DNA of 30,316 bases, taken from IMG/VR virus record IMGVR_UViG_3300020183_000326, positions 1-30,316 of that record; one strand, written 5' to 3'. Of this stretch, positions 4,401-28,768 are shown piece after piece. The position numbers were made by a program, and so were the translations under genes. The DNA comes from a virus. How positions within the stretch are numbered: position 1 is the stretch's first letter; each line of letters opens with the position of its first letter. Below the pieces are notes generated by a model. The model was not told the origin of the DNA. It did not search any database and saw only the letters and a program-made list of their open reading frames with translations.

Positions 4401-7052
4401 TATCATCTCCTCGCGCAACGGCACACCGAAAATGTTGTTGGAGTCAACCGCCCACGCATTCCAACTGATAGTCCCGTTGGTCTCAAATTGTTCCACTCGG
4501 CTAAACTCTGCCATTGCTGCGTCCTCTGCGACACGCAACATTTCGTCACGAAACGCCTTGACATCTTTGCTCCGGTTTGTGTACGGCTTCGGAACAACCT
4601 CTACCGGGTCAACTCCCCCTGCCTCAACGGCGCGTTGCCGAAACTCAAACTCGTCAATGTAGGCAGACAGGTACAGGTCCAGTTCGATTTCGGCAAGTCG
4701 GACAGCCTTGTCGATGTCGTCAATGATCGTTTGACGTTCGTCGGGGGTCAACGCCAGTTCGGCTTGGCGGGCGGTGCGCTCATACTCGGCGATCGCATTT
4801 TCGACGACACGTTTTTGTTCAACAGACAATTCCAGCTGCTCCAACGCGGCCCCCACACCGGGCAAATCCTCGTCACGAACCTGGTTCAGGTTGTCGACCA
4901 ACGCGCGGACGGTGGCTTGTACCGCACCCAACCGGGCTTCAGCCTCGATCAGGTCGTTGATCGTCTTCGCTTTCTCGGCGGTCACCGTTTCTTGCGTCTT
5001 CTCAATTTCGGCGATGCGTTCACGAATGCGCGACATCAGGTTGTCAATCTTTGCGACAATCCGATTGTATGAACCAGGCAAATAGGCTTCTGGTTTGTCG
5101 ACGAGCGTTTTCATGTCGTTGACAATGGATTCAACGAGTTTCTTGCCGAGCAGATCACCGTAAACGTCCGCAAGGTCTTGCAACCCTTGGACGATAGTGG
5201 TGATGTCTGCGCTGCGAGCCTGCCTCAGCAGACGTGCCTCAGCAAAAATGTTCGGCCTCATGTTCGCCGGGTAGATCATCGGGTCACGCATGATCGTCGG
5301 GAACAGTTGCAGGAACTGGTCGTACATCAGCTCAAAGATTCGTTGGGCGACACCGGCGAGCGGATGGTCGGGTGGGAGGTCGACCAGCGCACCGAACGCG
5401 CCTTGCGGGTCTTGTGCGGTTTGCTTGAACTGTTTGCGTTGTTCGGGTGGGAGGGTGTCCATGTATTGAACGGCGATGGCGTCGAGCGCGTTGATAATGC
5501 GCACCCGTTCGCTGCGCGGGAATCGTCCTTTGCCTAGTTCGGCGTACAGGAACTCGGCGAGCGGGAATGTACCTAAATAGGTTTCAGGCATCGGACCTTC
5601 CAACCGGTATCTGCCCGACAACTGTCCTCGAGTGAACTCGTCGCCGACCCGTCTGAGGAACTCCAACGCTGCGTCAATAGACCGGGTGGCGAACAGGTCT
5701 AGCTTGCCTTGCCGATAGTCAAGGGCTGCTTGGATGTCGGCGGGTGTGAACCGGTACCCAATGCGTTCAAGGTCGGGACCAACCTGTGTGGGTGTCATGC
5801 TGGTGGCAATCTGGTCAACAGGTTTGCCTTGAGCCGCTTCACGCAACACGATCTCAATGCGTCCAGTAAGGATCAGGTTGGCAACAGGGGCAGCGAACTC
5901 GGGCATCGGGCCTTCGGGTGCGTCAGGGTAGTACAGCGACGGGCCTCGCTGCTGGAGGCGTGATCCTTCGGTCTGAATGTTTGTGCGGACTGCCTCCTCA
6001 TAAAGCTGATCGGCGACAATCTGCGCACGGGCATCCGACACTCGACCAGATTGGCGCAACGCTTTCGCCAGCAGCGTCTTCTGATTGTTGATTTCGGCTT
6101 TGATGCGTCCCAAGTCAGCGTTCGGTACGAACAATTCTCTGTCCAACGCCTCAAGACGTTCTACGATTTTGATGACGTTGGCGTCGCCTCGAGCGCGACG
6201 AATGTCTTTTGCTTCGACAACGGTTTGGCGCAACGGACCGGGGGTGTCAACCAAACCTGCTTGAGAGATACGTCCTAGCCGGGAACTGAGGGTGGTCGCT
6301 CCTCGGGCTGCAGCACCGGCCTGTCCGACGCGCGCCGCCCCACGAACCGTTGTTCCGATTGGCTCCTCGATGAAGCGTCCTGTGGTGGAGATAACACGTC
6401 CGAGTCGGGGCGCACCGGCAGCAGCAACGCCCGTTCCTGCTTTAGACACGACGTTGCCTGCACCAGCACCACGCCCAAGCAGAATTACGTTTGCTAAATC
6501 TTCAACGAGGACCGCACCTAGTTGGTTTCTGTCGTAGGCATTTTTGTAATCGAACCCTGGTTCGCCAATGTCATAGAAACCATAAGTAACTGTTTCAGCC
6601 ACTCGAGGAATTGTTCTGGAATATGACGAAACAATGTCGGATGCCAACGGGTACTGGCGGTGACCAGCGTAAGCGTAAAGTTCTGCCCCGGTCAGTCCTT
6701 GCGCACGACCTCGAGCCAAGTCTGTTTCCAAGCGGGACGTGTACGGGTCTGTGCCGGTGATTGCTTCAACGCCTTCCGAGGCGAGATCGTACACGCCTTC
6801 CAGCACACCGCCACCGGTTTGGATTGCTTTGCCAGCGATAGTCGGCAGTTGTGCGACACCTGATATAACCGCCTTAGGCCCAGAAAGAAGGTTTGCGAGA
6901 AGACTACTGTCGCCGTCAGCACCCTTGTTCTTTTTACCTTCAGCAAGAATCGGCTTGGCAGGCGGGAGCAGTCGAGGGCCGGTGGTTCCCCCTGCGGACT
7001 CACGTCGGCGACGTTGCCTTTCGGCAATCAGTTCTTCTACGGTCATGCTCAT
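1479..7052 (-). CDS. Giant internal virion / DNA-ejection-type protein (1857 aa)
   Basis: The largest gene of the window. The N-terminal 230 residues hold several hydrophobic Gly/Ala-rich segments (about 50-100 and 178-220). A long charged coiled coil spans about 660-800, a second about 1065-1155. The C-terminal third contains amphipathic helices and the segment LNPFEKNVVRNIYPFWSWI starting near residue 1590, which I associate with very large internal virion proteins of podoviruses. No lytic transglycosylase, polymerase or MuF motif was recognised. Being last of three co-directional proteins after the lysis cassette, in a phage with no tape measure, it most likely enters the cell with the DNA and helps form the trans-envelope channel. 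Start: ATG at 7052, with a second in-frame ATG two codons later. Confidence 0.7.
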   Translation of the reverse strand: MSMTVEELIAERQRRRRESAGGTTGPRLLPPAKPILAEGKKNKGADGDSSLLANLLSGPKAVISGVAQLPTIAGKAIQTGGGVLEGVYDLASEGVEAITGTDPYTSRLETDLARGRAQGLTGAELYAYAGHRQYPLASDIVSSYSRTIPRVAETVTYGFYDIGEPGFDYKNAYDRNQLGAVLVEDLANVILLGRGAGAGNVVSKAGTGVAAAGAPRLGRVISTTGRFIEEPIGTTVRGAARVGQAGAAARGATTLSSRLGRISQAGLVDTPGPLRQTVVEAKDIRRARGDANVIKIVERLEALDRELFVPNADLGRIKAEINNQKTLLAKALRQSGRVSDARAQIVADQLYEEAVRTNIQTEGSRLQQRGPSLYYPDAPEGPMPEFAAPVANLILTGRIEIVLREAAQGKPVDQIATSMTPTQVGPDLERIGYRFTPADIQAALDYRQGKLDLFATRSIDAALEFLRRVGDEFTRGQLSGRYRLEGPMPETYLGTFPLAEFLYAELGKGRFPRSERVRIINALDAIAVQYMDTLPPEQRKQFKQTAQDPQGAFGALVDLPPDHPLAGVAQRIFELMYDQFLQLFPTIMRDPMIYPANMRPNIFAEARLLRQARSADITTIVQGLQDLADVYGDLLGKKLVESIVNDMKTLVDKPEAYLPGSYNRIVAKIDNLMSRIRERIAEIEKTQETVTAEKAKTINDLIEAEARLGAVQATVRALVDNLNQVRDEDLPGVGAALEQLELSVEQKRVVENAIAEYERTARQAELALTPDERQTIIDDIDKAVRLAEIELDLYLSAYIDEFEFRQRAVEAGGVDPVEVVPKPYTNRSKDVKAFRDEMLRVAEDAAMAEFSRVEQFETNGTISWNAWAVDSNNIFGVPLREEMINQLSRYLPLDDAIKLADGWAGGQFDNEGNVYSYDPFGITNDRGVGPKGLDDWVQLKATNFDDAQPDIGRQRSTSADGSTERPDEWSVYIRAMADLYKADQEVKRIKKLRLYEIADEMNRNREALDFRTSGFSLPVLARAIAYATNPNLLAADLRLRDRYATEMEAGVPYEGAPPRLIPIPKELLENLRRADRDVTKQERNVRRLRTEGTAEQRRIVQGQLKGVGKIIERPDGTVEGQMLKGPQTRAEAEIEQLRNKDVNKQKKLDELRQQFAVQSRMVTDVGGVRQSATAVSTQMAQPFGPQLLGTDSQLGYLPGGLPTTARDASRVMTELRTEGAAPQVKAPTSMLRTSDIMPLRLDDMVKRFDEIFNVVGRNRVLEDVVMNPRFSVRMGSLVTPEQLKQIVENAQRQVAAQNLVRTPFEVESAVQAQVGLRLYEIAQRNGYEAISPVKVDPTTGAHEALGDLLRTVPAEKIDPNTILMRIGMREKLTQQFEPRGSGNMPDAVQTVGNTLGKFTSEWKSTVLPFSLRWQIGDFVTNVINAWALADVAPSEIFRRMIEIDSLLTSSSKRLQSLTGTIENDLISVLIGAGLQARGLRDFDLQQMRGLNPRAAIADYQIRGPIPFLRDTPGFRMFPGFREKSYRFNEYQNTVARAATASIKLERILQQRGLTIDSVTPLNYVDDPNIRDAVNQAVRETNDALGAFSELNPFEKNVVRNIYPFWSWIRYINKAAVKMAIDHPDRVLFTAAVGSIASLPEQEGMFPFLQGKVPMLGYYFDLSFLNPYQDAIIVQPNPVKALMEQFQNISPTITAPVRAASAISYYAGGNQLDILGGNIQRPSYLEGQGSLLTGNVSTDRGFGDLLGELGYLGLTTMGGPFRNLPAYGPTGERFPGTDIALGNVQRFPQGSARTEGRYAVQRLSRPAQLAGALLGTFGIPRPMIEQDVAEQQALLQSIKDIQARQRRERERVLSRIGQ

Positions 7053-22252: not shown

Positions 22253-23005
22253 TCACAGCCCGTTCTGTGCGAGGCGAGCCATCGCACGTTCACGGGGTGT
22301 CATCTGCTGTCCGTTCGTCGAGACGACCGGCACTCCGTTGACGATTGGCGCACCCATGCTCGTACCGGCTTCAGCGCGTCTGTTTGCGATCTGTTGCGCT
22401 TGCGCCAAAACTTGTTCTTCCACCTCACGAATGGCTGCGGCGAGGTCAAGGTCGGATCGTTTTGACGCGGCCACAATGGCAGCCGTTGCGAGCGGGGTGT
22501 CCGGTACCAAACCATGCTGGGTCAACGTCTCCTCGATCTGCTGTTCGTATTGGGCTTGCACCTGAGCCTGCTGAATCTGCTGAAACGATTCCTGCAACCG
22601 GGTTTGGACGAGCTGTTCCACCTGCTCAGGGGTCATCCCAGCGTTGTTGCCGTCCGAGTACGCCTGCTGGGCGACCTGCGTGTTGATGGCCTGCTGTTGG
22701 GCGGGGGTGATGTAGGTGTCAAAGCGATCTCCGGCGAGGGTGCGGGCGTTGTCGACCATCCATCGGACAGCGGTTTCGGTGTCACCGGACGCGAAAGCGG
22801 TCGCAAACTCCTGTACGGCACGGGCGTCGTCGGGGTGCATCCGGCCGAACGTCTGAACGAAAGGCTTGTACCGTTCGCGCTCTTTGATGCGATCCTGCAC
22901 CTCAGCCTGATATTTCTCTTGCCAGTTGATGTCGGCAGGGGTTTCGGCAGGGGCTTCTCCTGTCGGGGTGGCATCCACCACTCCTTCGGGGGCAAAGTCG
23001 GTCAT
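22253..23005 (-). CDS. Scaffolding protein (250 aa)
   Basis: Acidic N-terminus rich in Ala, Pro and Thr (GVVDATPTGEAPAETPADI) leads to a long charged helix (QEKYQAEVQDRIKERERYK), a TPAQQQ segment and Gln-rich coiled coils (about 124-215), with a C-terminal NGQQMTPRERAMARLAQNGL, a basic helix that in scaffolds typically binds the coat. No cysteine or enzyme motif. The ATGA junction with the portal stop shows coupling; the capsid gene follows after a 252-base gap. Order and composition make this a scaffold rather than a protease. Confidence 0.8.
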   Translation of the reverse strand: MTDFAPEGVVDATPTGEAPAETPADINWQEKYQAEVQDRIKERERYKPFVQTFGRMHPDDARAVQEFATAFASGDTETAVRWMVDNARTLAGDRFDTYITPAQQQAINTQVAQQAYSDGNNAGMTPEQVEQLVQTRLQESFQQIQQAQVQAQYEQQIEETLTQHGLVPDTPLATAAIVAASKRSDLDLAAAIREVEEQVLAQAQQIANRRAEAGTSMGAPIVNGVPVVSTNGQQMTPRERAMARLAQNGL

Positions 23006-24951
23006 TGGGGTATCATCTCCTGTGGTAGTCCGGGGTTACCGGAAATAGCTTGGGGGACCATTGAGCCGGGGGCTTCGTTGGCTTGCGGCAGGGCTTCAGA
23101 CCCTGGCATCTGTTGCATTTGTGCGATTTGTTGCATCGCTTCCTCAGCCGCCATCGTCTGGTGCGCTTGGATGTGCAAGTCGATGGTTTGACGCACTTCA
23201 GGCTTCGCAAGTTCGTATGCAGGGGATTTGCGTTCCCGATTGTGTTGGGCGATGTGTTTGGCATGATCGTCAAAATCGGCGGGCATGACGGGAACGGCTT
23301 GCATGAGCAAACCGTTTTCCCATTCGGCTTTCGTGACATCAGGGTCGGTGGAACCGAGAAACCCTCGAGGGTCAGGTAGGTCCAGCATTCGTGCCAAAGC
23401 AATCCCGTCCACATTCTGAAAAGCCTGTGGAAATTGTTGTGCGAGGCTGGTGATAACCGACTGGGTGGCAATCTTAGAGCGGGGGGCGGTCGCATCCAAA
23501 GGTACTTTGACCTGCGGAAACTCTTCAATGTCTTCGGCTGTCCACTCGAATTGGAGTGTGTTGCCTTGCGGAGTGGTGAGAGTTTGGGTGCGAACCATGC
23601 CTGATTGGGAGGCGTACGACCGGTACATTTGCAACGTCATTTTGCCGATGCGCGCCCACATCGCCGACTGGTTGCGGGCCATCGGGCCGAGAGGGGTGTC
23701 GTCCTTCTCTGCGAGAACCGACAACGCTAAACCGGAGTTCCGGTCGCCAGGTGCTTGCCCTCGAGACACGGAGTGGGTGAAGAAAATGTCGTCCATTTCG
23801 GCTTCAAGTTGGGCGGCTTCCATGCTGATCCACCGTGGCACGTCGGGGGCGGTCTGCCAATGCGGTTCACCCAGTTCGGCGTTGTATTCCAGCACGTCGG
23901 CGGGGTCGGTGGTGATGACATCGGCGTCTTCGATAGACCCGGCTGGCACCATCAGACGGGCGTTCGCCGCTTTGCGCATATGTTCAAGGATGGTGGAGCG
24001 CGCCCGGTTGTAGGCGTACTGGATGTCACGGGCGGGAGTGAGCAGGGTGTGGCCGACCCATGTGCGCGGAATACGGCGTTGCGTAAACACCGCCAAGTTG
24101 AGGCTGGTGAACGGGAACGGCCAGCCTTGCCCGTCACCATACGAGTACACCTGTTTGTTGTTGACGACATGGACAACACAGCCGGGGGTGCGGTTAGTGG
24201 GACGCTCGTAGTAGCAGTAGACGAGGGTGAGGCGAGGCGGTTGGCCTTGCGGTCGGCGCGACAGAAGGGTGCGATGCCGTGCCGACAAGGCCGCTTCAGC
24301 ATCCGGCACCGGGTCAAAATCAAGGTTGTATCGTTCTTTCACCTGCTCAGGGGGTAAAGCGACACAGCGAATCCAGTAGCGGGCTGATTCCACGTCGGGG
24401 GAACCGGGTTCTAAACAGAACTCGGAAATACCTAGCGGAGTGAGACGCACCCCACCGGCAGGGATGTCAATGCCGGTCGCCAGGTCGGTGGCAACGACTT
24501 TACCCATACTCGGGTCCCAGTCAATGGAGATGGCGGCGGCACCACCGAACATGGTTTGCAGCAAAGACTCTTCCCTGATCTCAGCCCAATTCTGTTCGTA
24601 GGCTTCGGACAACAACAGTTGCTCTTGAAGATGTTGGCGACGCAGGTTGGAGTCGTCGATACCGGACGGTTCGACTTCCCAAATCAGCGGGGAGCGGGTC
24701 ATTCGGGCGATCAAGTTGGTGACACGCGGGCCAAACTTGTCGACGGTAATGCGGGTGAACCGTTCCGCTTCAGTCGCATAATCCAATTCTTGGACGATGT
24801 TACGGGTGTGATCCCACCAAACCCATTGGTGACCCCCAAAATAGGAGGCGTTCATCCAATAGTCGCGTCGTTCTTTCAACAGGTATTGGTCGGCTTTCGA
24901 CCACAAGTTGATGACTTCTTGCGGTTTGGGTGGTTCCCACGGCTTGTTCAC
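23002..24951 (-). CDS. Portal protein, P22-type (649 aa)
   Basis: A long protein with the segments of the large podovirus portal family: N-terminal helix LKERRDYWMNASYFGGHQW, ITVDKFGPRVTNLIARM, the core GWPFPFTSLNLAVFTQ, HTLLTPARDIQYAYNRAR (stem and loop helix), then SVSRGQAPGDRNSGLALSVL and PLGPMARNQSAMWARIGKM, and a Gln/Met-rich helical C-terminal barrel (about 590-649). Portal dodecamers form the DNA entry channel and dock terminase. GTG start at 24951, four bases overlapping the small TM gene (GTGA). Length of 649 aa suits this family. Confidence 0.85.
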   Translation of the reverse strand: MNKPWEPPKPQEVINLWSKADQYLLKERRDYWMNASYFGGHQWVWWDHTRNIVQELDYATEAERFTRITVDKFGPRVTNLIARMTRSPLIWEVEPSGIDDSNLRRQHLQEQLLLSEAYEQNWAEIREESLLQTMFGGAAAISIDWDPSMGKVVATDLATGIDIPAGGVRLTPLGISEFCLEPGSPDVESARYWIRCVALPPEQVKERYNLDFDPVPDAEAALSARHRTLLSRRPQGQPPRLTLVYCYYERPTNRTPGCVVHVVNNKQVYSYGDGQGWPFPFTSLNLAVFTQRRIPRTWVGHTLLTPARDIQYAYNRARSTILEHMRKAANARLMVPAGSIEDADVITTDPADVLEYNAELGEPHWQTAPDVPRWISMEAAQLEAEMDDIFFTHSVSRGQAPGDRNSGLALSVLAEKDDTPLGPMARNQSAMWARIGKMTLQMYRSYASQSGMVRTQTLTTPQGNTLQFEWTAEDIEEFPQVKVPLDATAPRSKIATQSVITSLAQQFPQAFQNVDGIALARMLDLPDPRGFLGSTDPDVTKAEWENGLLMQAVPVMPADFDDHAKHIAQHNRERKSPAYELAKPEVRQTIDLHIQAHQTMAAEEAMQQIAQMQQMPGSEALPQANEAPGSMVPQAISGNPGLPQEMIPQ

Positions 24952-25154
24952 GGTCCTACTGCCTCAACTGGTGTTTCCCACGCGGAGCGTGTTTTGGTGT
25001 CGTCACGATCTTTCTTGCGTGGCTTACGACTCTGCTCGGCCGCTATTGCGACAGCTGGACTCTTCGCCAACAATAGATTAGTCAGACGACGGTTCTCTCG
25101 TAGCAACATTCCGATGACGGCGGCCAAAACGACGATAGCGACGGTGGCAATCAC
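24948..25154 (-). CDS. Small one-TM protein upstream of the portal (68 aa)
   Basis: Starts at GTG 25154, overlapping the upstream stop (GTGA). A hydrophobic span (about residues 2-18, IATVAIVVLAAVIGMLL) is followed by a basic helix (RENRRLTNLLLAK) and a charged tail. It ends in a second GTGA overlap with the portal start, so it is firmly embedded in the packaging operon. A membrane protein in this position is unusual; it could tether packaging to the membrane or simply be coupled for expression. Function not recognised. Confidence 0.65.
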   Translation of the reverse strand: MIATVAIVVLAAVIGMLLRENRRLTNLLLAKSPAVAIAAEQSRKPRKKDRDDTKTRSAWETPVEAVGP

Positions 25155-25636
25155 AGGTCACCCACAAAGTCGGTGTTGACGGCCGATTCCTCCCGACGAG
25201 GGCGACCGCGCTTGCGGACGAGGGGTGCGTCCGCTTCCGATGGTGCGTCATCGTGCGACAGATCACCCCCGTCGGTCGGAGGCACGGAGCCTGCCTTCTC
25301 CGTAGAGGAAGACTGTACACCATGCACAGCCCCGGCAATCGCCGCTAAACGCTGTTCGGCATCTTCGGCACGGTTGATGAGTTTGGCGACCACACGGTTC
25401 AACGTGTCCACTTCACCGTTGTGGGCGAACGCCAACCCTCGAGACGGGGCGCACATCCGGCCGATCTCGACCGCACAATCAGCACAAATGTAGAGACGAG
25501 TGACAGCGGACGGGTTCAAGTCCTCTGGACTGTTGTGGCCGTCCAAATCCTGTTCCATGTCGATGATCGGTTTTGCTACACCACGGCAAATCCAACAGCA
25601 ACCAGGCAGATAGTTGTAGTTGTCAACCAGTCTCAT
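25151..25636 (-). CDS. Cys-rich, AT-hook-bearing protein beside terL (161 aa)
   Basis: N-terminal cysteines at 13, 14 and 17 and a second pair C51-x-x-C54 (YICADCAVEIG) suggest a zinc ribbon. A helical middle (about 75-105) leads to an acidic region and RKRGRPRR at 141-148, a typical AT-hook minor-groove binding motif. Such a protein could hold DNA during packaging. Its ATG directly abuts the stop of the terminase gene (TGAATG) and its own end overlaps the small TM gene. The combination of ribbon and AT-hook in this position is not one I recognise. Confidence 0.7.
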   Translation of the reverse strand: MRLVDNYNYLPGCCWICRGVAKPIIDMEQDLDGHNSPEDLNPSAVTRLYICADCAVEIGRMCAPSRGLAFAHNGEVDTLNRVVAKLINRAEDAEQRLAAIAGAVHGVQSSSTEKAGSVPPTDGGDLSHDDAPSEADAPLVRKRGRPRREESAVNTDFVGDL

Positions 25637-27211
25637 TCACAATCTCCGTTTCTTCGCGCTTTTGTCAAGACGCTCTATGAACTTTTGGACTTTGCCTTCT
25701 GCACCGGGCATTGTGACCTTGTTTTTGCGCGAAATGTCATTGTACGGGCGGCAGGCTAAAAGGTACCTTAGTGCGTCCACGGCATGATCTTCGTCATCTG
25801 TGTCAATGTCTTCTACCTGCACTTTGGCGTGACGCATAGCTGGGAGGGTGCGCAACAGGTTTTCGCAGGTGGAGAACACTTTCAGTTTCGGTTCCCCTGA
25901 AATCGGGGCCGGTTGCAGGTAGCGGCGCACGTTCTGCCAGCCGGACACACGCGCGTTCTTGGCGCGGGTGACATGAACACCGAGACTGTTGTACACACCT
26001 GCAACAGTTGTCCCCATTCCGGATGTGTTGCTGTAGGTGGACGGGTCGATAGCGGTGGCGGTGACATTCTCAAACCGGCCATTGGACATTTTGGACATTT
26101 CTTTGACTTGTGCCGCCTGTTGGGCGACCGTCAGGTTCCGTTGGTACGCCTCCCTGTACACATAGCAGATGCCTGTGGCAGGGTTCCACGCCCCCCACAG
26201 ACAGCAGTACGGGTTAGCGGTACCAAAGTCGATACCCCGATAGCGAGGCCATTCGGCTGGCACCTCGAACGGCTCCACAACGTGCAGATCACGGCGAAAC
26301 TCGGTGAAATACTGGCCGGTGAACGTGTCCCAGTCACCTAACAGTTTCTGTTTACGTTCCGTTTCAGGGAGCATTGACAGGTGTTTACGGTAGGTGGGGT
26401 CAATGTGCGGGTTGTCGTCGACGGTGGACGGCACGAATGCGACCACCAAATGGTTGTTCGGGTCGTGAGGAATGTCGAGTTGGGCGAGTTCGCTGTTGTT
26501 ATCAGGGAGTTCGACGCGCCGAACGATGTCAGGGTTCTCAAACCCGTCACGCACGTCGTAAACGACCGCAAACCGGCCGTGTTGGGTGGGTTGGACGAGC
26601 ATCCGATACAGGAACGTGTGGCCTCGATCACCGGGGTTGGTGGCGAACATGACGTGGGTGCGAACACCCTGGTTAGCCATATGACGGGATGTTCGCAGAC
26701 GGCCGGAGATCATCAGCATCTGATAGGGGGTGAACTGGGTTGCCTCATCAAACCCGATGAAGTCGTATTCGGCACTCATGTATTGGCCGACATCCTCGTC
26801 TCGGGCGCAAAACCCGTATTCGATGATGCTCGAGTTGTCATACCACCAGGCTTTCACGTTGTCGATGGACCGCAGTTGAGCTTTCACATCCAGTTGGGCG
26901 TACCGCACTTGTGAGCGGATGATAAGCGACCGGCGTAGTTCGGGGAGGGCGGTACGGATGAGGAGGGTGCGATGACCAGGATGTTTCGCGGACAGTTCGT
27001 GGGCGTGGAAGGCGAGCAGTTCGCTCTTACCACCACCGGCGGCACCGCCGTACAGCAGCCAGTCCGTTTTCCGTACCAGAATGTGGGCGCGTTCCTGCCG
27101 AAGGTTGCCGGTCAGCCTCCACGCCGACAGATCAGCCTCAAGTAGACGCAAATATTCGTCTTGTTCGGCGGTGGTGAGTTGAAGAAACTCGTCGTCGGAC
27201 AGCAAATTCAT
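25637..27211 (-). CDS. terL: Terminase large subunit (524 aa)
   Basis: ATPase motor and nuclease of DNA packaging. Walker A GGAAGGGKS is at 55-63, Walker B FIGFDEA at 151-157 with the catalytic DE pair, motif C ATNP at 190-193, and the nuclease acidic residues in RGIDFG (D328), AIDPS (D389) and DDEDHAVDALRY (D479). The N-terminal helix (about 5-30) likely binds the small subunit. Length is normal. ATGA overlap with the GP88-like gene upstream and direct abutment with the ribbon protein downstream place it in a coupled packaging operon. Assignment is secure from the paired motifs. Confidence 0.93.
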   Translation of the reverse strand: MNLLSDDEFLQLTTAEQDEYLRLLEADLSAWRLTGNLRQERAHILVRKTDWLLYGGAAGGGKSELLAFHAHELSAKHPGHRTLLIRTALPELRRSLIIRSQVRYAQLDVKAQLRSIDNVKAWWYDNSSIIEYGFCARDEDVGQYMSAEYDFIGFDEATQFTPYQMLMISGRLRTSRHMANQGVRTHVMFATNPGDRGHTFLYRMLVQPTQHGRFAVVYDVRDGFENPDIVRRVELPDNNSELAQLDIPHDPNNHLVVAFVPSTVDDNPHIDPTYRKHLSMLPETERKQKLLGDWDTFTGQYFTEFRRDLHVVEPFEVPAEWPRYRGIDFGTANPYCCLWGAWNPATGICYVYREAYQRNLTVAQQAAQVKEMSKMSNGRFENVTATAIDPSTYSNTSGMGTTVAGVYNSLGVHVTRAKNARVSGWQNVRRYLQPAPISGEPKLKVFSTCENLLRTLPAMRHAKVQVEDIDTDDEDHAVDALRYLLACRPYNDISRKNKVTMPGAEGKVQKFIERLDKSAKKRRL

Positions 27212-27936
27212 AGGTCGCTCATTGTTCTTCCGTCAAATCGTTTGTTAGCGACCGGCAGGTTGTTAGCAACAATGCCAATCTTGTTGCTTGGCGCACAGAC
27301 AGCCAGCAGGTCGTTGTCGGACTGGTCATAGTATCCAGCCTTGGTCAACGCTTCTAGCGTCGGGAACACGTCGGCGTGACGGTCGGTGTCCCGGTCAATC
27401 ATGTGATCTTGTTTCCCGCCATACGAGTAGATGACACGAAAGTTGGTTGGCAAAATAGCGTTCTTTAGCATGGCGACTTCTTTGGTGTACGCATAAAACA
27501 GCAGGTCTTCCCAGTCTTCGGCTAGGTCAATCCATAGTTGCAGGTAATCCTCGGAAAAGAAGTCTCCGGCATCGTGAATGCGAAGTGCTTTACCGCCGTT
27601 GGCGATCCAGCCTGCCAGCCATTCATCATTTGGGTCGTGGTCAATCTGTGCCGGTTGGCCGGTGGGACGCATTCGTTTGTGAGCAAGTTCGACAGCTATT
27701 GCAGTTTGCCATTTTTTTGGTGTTTCCAGCACCATTTTTAGGTTGGCGAGGTGTTTGCGCCGCACGTTGCTGAAGGTGTAGGTGCCAAACTTTGCGTAGC
27801 ACACTCGGCCGCAAGCTAGAGCGTTAGGACAGCAGTTGAACCTTGTTCCGTCGCCAAGATCAACAACATGCGCTGGGATCGTCCAATTCCACACACCGAC
27901 ACGGCGTAGTTCGCTGTTCTGTGTCAACAAACTCAT
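27208..27936 (-). CDS. GP88-like cysteine protein between the terminase genes (242 aa)
   Basis: The N-terminus has CCPNALACGRVCYAKFG (cysteines 35, 36, 42, 46) followed by GTYTFSNVRRKH, and the centre has ALRIHDAGDFFSEDYLQLW (118-135) and LLFYAYTK (145-152). These match the phage family Gene product 88 (GP88), whose proteins share a C...C...CYA cluster and an RIHDxGDFxS core; a radical-SAM-like barrel has seemed plausible to me but is not established. The gene overlaps its neighbours by ATGA at both ends, so it is made with both terminase subunits. Its place is striking: such genes are usually in early or accessory regions. Function unknown. Confidence 0.72.
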   Translation of the reverse strand: MSLLTQNSELRRVGVWNWTIPAHVVDLGDGTRFNCCPNALACGRVCYAKFGTYTFSNVRRKHLANLKMVLETPKKWQTAIAVELAHKRMRPTGQPAQIDHDPNDEWLAGWIANGGKALRIHDAGDFFSEDYLQLWIDLAEDWEDLLFYAYTKEVAMLKNAILPTNFRVIYSYGGKQDHMIDRDTDRHADVFPTLEALTKAGYYDQSDNDLLAVCAPSNKIGIVANNLPVANKRFDGRTMSDL

Positions 27937-28487
27937 GCAGTTCCGTCCCCAATCGCCCGTAGGCCAGCCTCGACACGCTGTTTAGCGGTGGCGCGCAACT
28001 CTTCGAGACGGGACTGACGGTCTTCCGGGTTGCCGGTGCGCTGCTCCTGAATAGAAGTCGCCTGCCCAGACTCCAAACGAAGGATGTCATACCAGATTTT
28101 TGCCACTTTCGTCGCTTCCTCAGCGGTTTTGATCTCCCATTCACCCCCGGCGAGCCGCAAACCCAAGTCGACGATGATCCCTTGAGCCAATTTGGGGAGG
28201 ATTTCCCTCGAGGCGACCCCCGAAGCCAACATTTCTTCCCCTAACACCCGTAACTGTTCAGCCCGTTTCTTCTGTTCGGCGCGCTCCAACTCCTTTTTGA
28301 CACGCATCTCATCCAAATCGGCGGCTCGACGCTGTTTCCGGCCTCGTTCCACCTCCCCATCAGACACCACCTCAAGCGACGACAGGTCGTCCACAACCCG
28401 GTGGGTGGGGATACCGTCATGCGGTTTACGGCCTTTGATGCCGTCGACGATCTGCTGTGCGGATTCGCTCACTTTACGAGGGGTCAC
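27933..28487 (-). CDS. Probable terminase small subunit (184 aa)
   Basis: GTG start at 28487, overlapping the upstream stop as GTGA, which rejects a longer upstream reading. Sequence: an N-terminal helix (KVSESAQQIVDGIKGRKP), a long charged coiled coil (about 44-85), and C-terminal helices (TAEEATKVAKIWYDILRL). Helical, oligomer-forming proteins of this size immediately before terL are usually small terminase subunits that recognise the packaging site. No canonical HTH is clear, so the assignment is positional. Confidence 0.6.
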   Translation of the reverse strand: MTPRKVSESAQQIVDGIKGRKPHDGIPTHRVVDDLSSLEVVSDGEVERGRKQRRAADLDEMRVKKELERAEQKKRAEQLRVLGEEMLASGVASREILPKLAQGIIVDLGLRLAGGEWEIKTAEEATKVAKIWYDILRLESGQATSIQEQRTGNPEDRQSRLEELRATAKQRVEAGLRAIGDGTA

Positions 28488-28768
28488 AAGATGATCTTCC
28501 CGTCCAAAATGTCGTGCAGGGTCGCCCAAATCTGCATAGACAGGCTGGCGACCGCCTGACACGCCACCATCTCCCCCGCCGTCAACGTCCCCACCTGATA
28601 GGAACGCTCCGCAAGCTCCAAAGTGTGCGCCGCCGCCAAAAAAGCGACCCGACATTCGGCTGGGGTCAGGAACACGCCTTGGGATTCGAGAGCGAACCGG
28701 GCTTGTGCGACCAACTGGTCGTTCCCCAGACGGGTGACAGTCCCCATCAGATCATCAACAACACTCAT
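28484..28768 (-). CDS. Small helical protein opening the packaging operon (94 aa)
   Basis: The product begins MSVVDDLMGTVTRLGNDQL, is wholly helical with a conserved-looking FLTPAECRVAFLAAAHTLELAER and a second helix (EMVACQAVASLSMQIWATL). A strong GGAGG (28782-28778) nine bases before the ATG at 28768 fixes the start and argues against longer readings into the noncoding region. It is the first gene of the leftward cluster. Function not recognised; a second small terminase-like or packaging-regulatory protein is possible. Confidence 0.7.
   Translation of the reverse strand: MSVVDDLMGTVTRLGNDQLVAQARFALESQGVFLTPAECRVAFLAAAHTLELAERSYQVGTLTAGEMVACQAVASLSMQIWATLHDILDGKIIL

Follow-up and report, generated by a model that had tools for sequence, protein, structure and literature searches.

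Enzymes of the radical-SAM superfamily, among them viperin-like proteins, NifB, SuiB and CteB, are built from a strand, a three-cysteine loop and an alternating barrel. Their canonical cysteine spacing is CX3CX2C, and accepted members with other spacings exist, for example QueE and ThiC. Two phage protein families come closest to the gene described here: GP88 (PF17338), the 'gene product 88' that mycobacteriophages encode in the right arm, and, on suggestive similarity, DUF5131, or phage Gp37/Gp68 (PF07505). Literature searches on PF17338 or GP88 (also in combination with radical SAM) and on DUF5131 yielded no function. DpdA, Dam, Mom/XF1762 and the C5- and N4/N6-methyltransferases have folds unrelated to that of GP88 and known chemistries, and are comparable with it in genomic role only: in relatives they sit in the same slot, between a TerS-like gene and the gene for the terminase large subunit TerL, in which we find the GP88 gene analysed below.

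A GP88 gene within a packaging module

The window, that is, the whole 30,316-nt stretch of viral DNA analysed here (a 30.3-kb IMG/VR fragment), holds a single GP88 copy. A reading-frame check gave a minus-strand ORF of 242 aa at 27936..27208, exactly where the earlier note had placed a GP88-like protein; the plus strand of 27208-27936 contains many stops and is not open. The Pfam GP88 profile matched residues 13-218 of this protein (E = 4.1e-40, 138.5 bits, cut-off 24.4). The match to the family is full-length and includes the three cysteines and the R-H-GDF core, and relatives occur in phages, plasmids and chromosomes.

The minus-strand order in the window is a TerS-like ORF, GP88, TerL, a small gene (c8) and a P22-like portal. 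TerL (25637..27211, 524 aa) was recognized by Terminase_6C (2e-7) and PHROG 979, terminase large subunit (1.2e-35), and the portal (23002..24951, 649 aa) by P22_portal (1.7e-12) and PHROG 156 (6e-30). The conserved c8 (25151..25636) keeps its position after TerL in relatives and has no Pfam family match. The ORF upstream of GP88 (27933..28655) had no Pfam or PHROG match, and we infer that it is TerS-like from its position only, which is conserved directly upstream of TerL in relatives. The TerS-like proteins of these relatives are 165-208 aa long, so translation of this ORF probably begins at a GTG near 28487. Its predicted structure, all-helical and of low confidence (pLDDT 59), was too poor to serve as evidence and was set aside. 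In the earlier note's reading, the naming of this ORF as the second terminase subunit is the one detail that found no support in the family searches. At both junctions the genes share a 4-nt ATGA overlap (TCAT on the plus strand), as previously read: the TerS-like stop overlaps the GP88 start at 27933..27936, and the GP88 stop overlaps the TerL start at 27208..27211.

The cysteine cluster and the RIHDAGDFFS core singled out in the earlier note are both present in the protein, as residues 35-48 (CCPNALACGRVCYA) and 119-128. The cluster, C36-X5-C42-X3-C46 followed by YA (27799..27831, minus strand), lies in the loop that barrel strand 1 leads into and is the proposed [4Fe-4S] site. The RIHDAGDFF motif (residues 119-127; 27556..27582, minus strand) follows barrel strand 2, modelled at residues 117-120; it stands where radical-SAM enzymes have their SAM-binding GGE motif and may be the equivalent of that motif. 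A third motif, FYAYTKE (residues 147-153; 27478..27498, minus strand), forms barrel strand 3. C36, P37, C42, C46 and A48 are invariant in 56 diverse relatives, and 10 members of greater divergence keep them as well. Among the other residues that never vary in the 56 sequences are A39 and Y47 near the cysteines, R119, H121, D122, G124, D125 and F126 of the RIHDAGDFF motif, F147, Y148, Y150 and K152 of FYAYTKE, and Y131, W135, S171 and D177. The majority of the invariant residues are retained in the most divergent GP88 members. Invariance of this kind, in three cysteines and an RxHxxGDF core, is what active sites typically show.

An AlphaFold2 model of GP88 built from the 56 sequences (pLDDT 96.1, pTM 0.92) runs from strand 32-34 through the C36/C42/C46 loop, helix 56-71, strand 117-120 leading into DAGDFF and helix 129-141 to strands 146-151, 166-171 and 187-191, a helix, strand 219-223 and a final helix. 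The predicted topology fits the radical-SAM plan, with a putative cluster loop after strand 1 and a putative SAM-binding acidic loop after strand 2, and would share with that superfamily the strand, three-cysteine loop and alternating barrel. Foldseek alone found no significant match to the model in the PDB. After re-ranking with VIA-align, the eight best rows were all radical-SAM enzymes (Z 4.4-6.3), led by viperin-like 9dgw (6.3), NifB 6y1x (6.2), SuiB (5.6) and CteB (4.9), and the next rows were assorted barrels at 4.3 or less; Z stays below 8 throughout, and values of this size can reflect no more than a common arrangement. Because viperin and NifB score alike, we take the match as one at the level of the fold. 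A PDB sequence search returned no relative of GP88 or DUF5131. The profile search proposed in the earlier note returned GP88 well above its cut-off and no radical-SAM family: PF04055 did not match, and with E values up to 1 admitted, GP88 was the sole profile to do so. Given the non-canonical CX5CX3C spacing and the negative PF04055 result, we use the term radical-SAM-like for the protein and refrain from placing it in the superfamily, from which the low absolute Z also sets it apart.

DUF5131 proteins show the same order of motifs as GP88: their cysteine cluster ends in CYA, SDLF stands where GP88 has GDFF, and LTKR where it has YTKE. Their cysteines are spaced CX6CX2C. In hhalign comparisons, LTKR aligned with the FYAYTKE motif, and the two families gave a local P value of 0.004 and a global one of 0.003, at a probability of 4-8%, whereas a reversed control gave 0.62; these figures come from deeper alignments, shallow ones being uninformative. 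The PF07505 profile matched neither the GP88 protein nor anything else in the window's record. These alignments are suggestive of homology between GP88 and DUF5131, short of proof. A BFVD fold match annotated 'Gp37/Gp68-like' was not used as proof of this kinship; it may be GP88 under an older name, because an S-SRM01 protein so annotated matches GP88.

Exchange of genes in the terS-TerL slot

We fetched the closest relatives of the window TerL irrespective of GP88 and pooled them with the GP88-derived loci, giving 89 loci with TerL 67-100% identical to that of the window. In 43 of the 89, the slot is empty, with 0-42 nt between the TerS-like gene and TerL. GP88 occupies it in 26, a count inflated by loci first found via GP88 (the set of alternatives is not inflated); it stands alone in 19, with DpdA in 5 (DpdA-GP88 in 4, GP88-DpdA in 1) and with a 210-aa protein, k33, in 2. 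Slots without GP88 hold k33 alone (3 loci), Dam (3), a C5-methyltransferase (3), an N4/N6-methyltransferase (2), XF1762 (2), DpdA (2) or a short unidentified insert (2), and in 3 loci the slot was not visible. These are observed counts; the majority of accessory genes elsewhere in the loci, listed as background, are doubtful ORFs. The alternatives were recognized by profile matches for Dam (PF05869, 8e-10), the C5-methyltransferase (DNA_methylase, 5e-61), the N4/N6-methyltransferase (N6_N4_Mtase, 2e-32), DpdA (PF23859, 1e-73 and 6e-72) and XF1762 (NCBIfam, 3e-57, plus a weak Mom match at 5e-4). All five annotated families that take the place of GP88 modify DNA, XF1762 by virtue of its weak Mom match.

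Inserts are frequently joined to both neighbouring genes by 4-nt overlaps. In one locus (L193), TerL is 100% identical to the window TerL, yet XF1762 replaces GP88, and a single TerL set linked at 99% identity or more contains six identified slot states: empty, GP88, DpdA, DpdA-GP88, k33 and GP88-k33. Slot contents exchange fast, and the terS-TerL gap is a cargo slot in which GP88 is dispensable and exchangeable, not a packaging component. The earlier note had implied a tie between GP88 and the packaging motor; as such, this tie finds no support, given TerL genes at least 99% identical that lack GP88 or carry a replacement, and GP88 genes that lie far from TerL. The slot GP88s fall in two groups of the GP88 tree, so GP88 probably entered the slot more than once.

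The k33 protein, which had no Pfam or NCBIfam match, is a candidate DNA-modification enzyme. It fills the slot alone in L232 (1641-2273), L233 and L243 and follows GP88 in L029 and L030.

DpdA adjoins GP88 in two arrangements, DpdA-GP88-TerL (L012, L039, L229) and GP88-DpdA-TerL (L007). A general GP88-DpdA partnership was rejected, as DpdA occurs in just 4 of the 50 GP88-bearing records searched whole, three of which represent one clade; many of these records are fragments. With or without GP88, DpdA lies beside TerL in two terminase lineages (L007:714-1490, L012:357-1139, L039, L229, L214, L231, L286, L287). No preQ0 genes are visible in the DpdA-TerL contigs, which are short. That DpdA can occur where precursor genes are missing is a recognized puzzle. 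Mycobacteriophage Orion, which has DpdA only, showed no 7-deazaguanine (PMC6884629).

Downstream of a second TerL, unmatched by the window TerL and recognized by Terminase_6N (1e-23), come GP88 and, after it, a Mu-type portal. In relatives of this TerL, the same place, or that just upstream of TerS, holds DpdA (L286, L287), N4/N6- or ParB-linked methyltransferases, Mom (6e-40) or a C5-methyltransferase with CmoA-like and CmoY-like genes. The order in L048 is CmoY-ParB-C5MTase-CmoA-terS-TerL-GP88-portal; the C5-methyltransferase, CmoA-like and CmoY-like genes stand directly upstream of terS-TerL there (L048:3-7531) and in L301-L303. This set resembles the carboxymethylcytosine pathway of PMC12783734, for which ParB-domain neighbours are also given. 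One lineage (L077, L079-L083, L087, L088, L069, L070) has a WhiB-like Fe-S gene interposed between GP88 and the Mu-type portal.

Distribution and other contexts of GP88

With the GP88 alignment as query, 477 viral-contig stretches matched, and genome contigs yielded 125 GP88 stretches, actinobacteria making up the majority of those listed. The window GP88 matched 45 actinobacterial plasmids, mostly of Streptomyces, and a mycobacteriophage member matched 377 phage records; cyanophage and archaeal-virus proteins match as well. Among 60 non-redundant GP88s, a TerL or portal gene lies within 6 kb in 22, spanning at least two TerL lineages, and a conjugation gene in 12. The link to terminase genes, for which the earlier note had suggested a neighbourhood survey, is therefore real and recurrent, and terS-GP88-TerL is one of several orders. 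Recognized modification genes lie within 6 kb of 12 of the 60, and modification or ParB-like genes of 18. Strong in two phage lineages, the association with modification is patchy outside them, because the majority of loci have no recognized modification enzyme within that distance.

Two compact clusters look like thymine-hypermodification clusters. In L071 (5340-11236), GP88 is followed by ParB, Tet/JBP (1e-7), ADDT (4e-19), an FAD oxidoreductase and Ploopntkinase3 (2e-17); in L023 (2128-6735), ADDT (1e-17), a P-loop gene and Tet/JBP (6e-11) precede GP88. The clusters include ParB or GATase genes. A ParB-methyltransferase adjoins GP88 in L057 and L058, and FolE and QueE lie near it in L084, L086 and L114. 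Amidoligase, class II glutamine amidotransferase and ParB-like genes were seen near GP88 in L073-L076, L035 and L051.

In actinobacterial conjugative elements, GP88 lies between VirB4/TraC-like and VirD4-like ATPase genes, with PrgI and replication-relaxation genes adjoining (loci include L098, L099, L101, L110, L112, L116, L136 and L137). This VirB4-VirD4 junction is empty in nearly all sampled relatives, holding GP88 in the anchor element and, in one other, an NlpC/P60-like gene identified by eye. Since the junction is usually empty, GP88 is an insertion in conjugative elements too. No modification genes were seen to replace GP88 there in the sampled elements, and the junction was not taken as a second cargo slot, the exchange pattern of the phages being absent from it.

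Possible roles of GP88

On balance, with a little better than even confidence, we regard GP88 as a stand-alone radical-SAM-like enzyme that modifies phage DNA bases and travels as exchangeable slot cargo. In close relatives, the slot is empty or holds known DNA-modifying enzymes, and GP88 is therefore probably an exchangeable iron-sulfur, radical-type DNA-marking enzyme. Of the roles suggested in the earlier note (DNA modification, Fe-S enzyme or passenger), this reading keeps an exchangeable cargo with a radical-SAM-like three-cysteine site, probably DNA-modifying. The note's family assignment is correct, and its guess of a DNA-modification or Fe-S enzyme draws support from separate lines of evidence. 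C36, C42 and C46 would hold a [4Fe-4S] cluster, and the enzyme would cleave SAM to a 5'-deoxyadenosyl radical, its substrate being a base in DNA. These features are most simply read as radical chemistry directed at a base of DNA. GP88 would act late in infection on the DNA of its own phage, most likely to shield it from host restriction, and the ATGA overlaps would couple its translation to the packaging genes without membership in the motor. It probably acts by itself, because it is alone in 19 of the 26 GP88-bearing slots. The more specific proposal, that GP88 is a self-sufficient radical enzyme installing a so far undescribed base modification on both phage and conjugative-element DNA, is tentative, and we give it clearly less than even weight.

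The best structural match is a viperin-like enzyme, which acts on a nucleotide, and no single modification pathway co-occurs with GP88, as would suit a radical-SAM-like enzyme whose substrate is a small molecule or RNA, in a slot that collects moron genes. We think this unlikely: the five annotated replacing families all act on DNA, GP88 lies within thymine- and beside cytosine-hypermodification clusters, and viperin scores no better than NifB, a match of fold only. GP88 might instead tailor bases already modified by phage or host, such as DpdA-inserted 7-deazaguanine or 5-hydroxymethyluracil, which would account for its two arrangements with DpdA, its Tet/JBP and ADDT neighbours and the nearby FolE and QueE. 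The frequency with which it occupies the slot alone, the scarcity of DpdA in GP88-bearing records (many of them fragments) and the different bases on which the candidate partner pathways act make this a decidedly improbable role.

A neutral passenger, or an unrelated function such as an anti-defence binder or regulator on a degenerate, non-catalytic fold, would be consistent with the dispensability of GP88 in close relatives and with its non-canonical cysteine spacing. The three cysteines and the RxHxxGDF core are nonetheless invariant in the 56 relatives, which include chromosomal copies as distant as about 45% identity, and are kept in the more divergent cyanophage and archaeal-virus members, so that we hold this very unlikely. 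Least probable is a packaging or head accessory that works with TerS and TerL, for example by marking DNA for packaging. The recurrence of TerL or portal genes beside GP88 across terminase lineages and the translational coupling in the window speak for it. We reject it because near-identical TerL genes (99-100%) exist without GP88 or with another slot gene; moreover, a GP88 93% identical to that of the window lies among unrelated genes in L004, L005 and L021, and the family also occurs in conjugative elements, plasmids and mycobacteriophage right arms.

For GP88 as a DNA-modifying radical enzyme, the phages offer a natural swap experiment, with the same TerL beside GP88, Dam, DpdA, XF1762, a methyltransferase or nothing. 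It points to a concrete and testable class of function for this widespread family, and the GP88-DpdA pairs (L007; L012, L039, L229) are worth testing. If the proposal is true, radical chemistry on DNA would be a phage counter-restriction strategy, a family that hundreds of phages, plasmids and integrative elements of actinobacteria carry would, on the more specific proposal, gain its founding function, and the terS-terL gap would be a place to seek further modification enzymes, with k33 as a candidate.

Two further arrangements were observed around the packaging genes. In L011, L034, L036 and L219 (307-1293, minus strand), another GP88-like gene, longer at about 327 aa, precedes them by a few kb; the slot of L219 itself is without GP88. 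The GP88 of L004, L005 and L021 (near 6001-6860) stands outside any packaging module and is followed by a stretch that matches TerL over residues 1-43 and no further, which gives the impression that the gene moved together with a terL stub.
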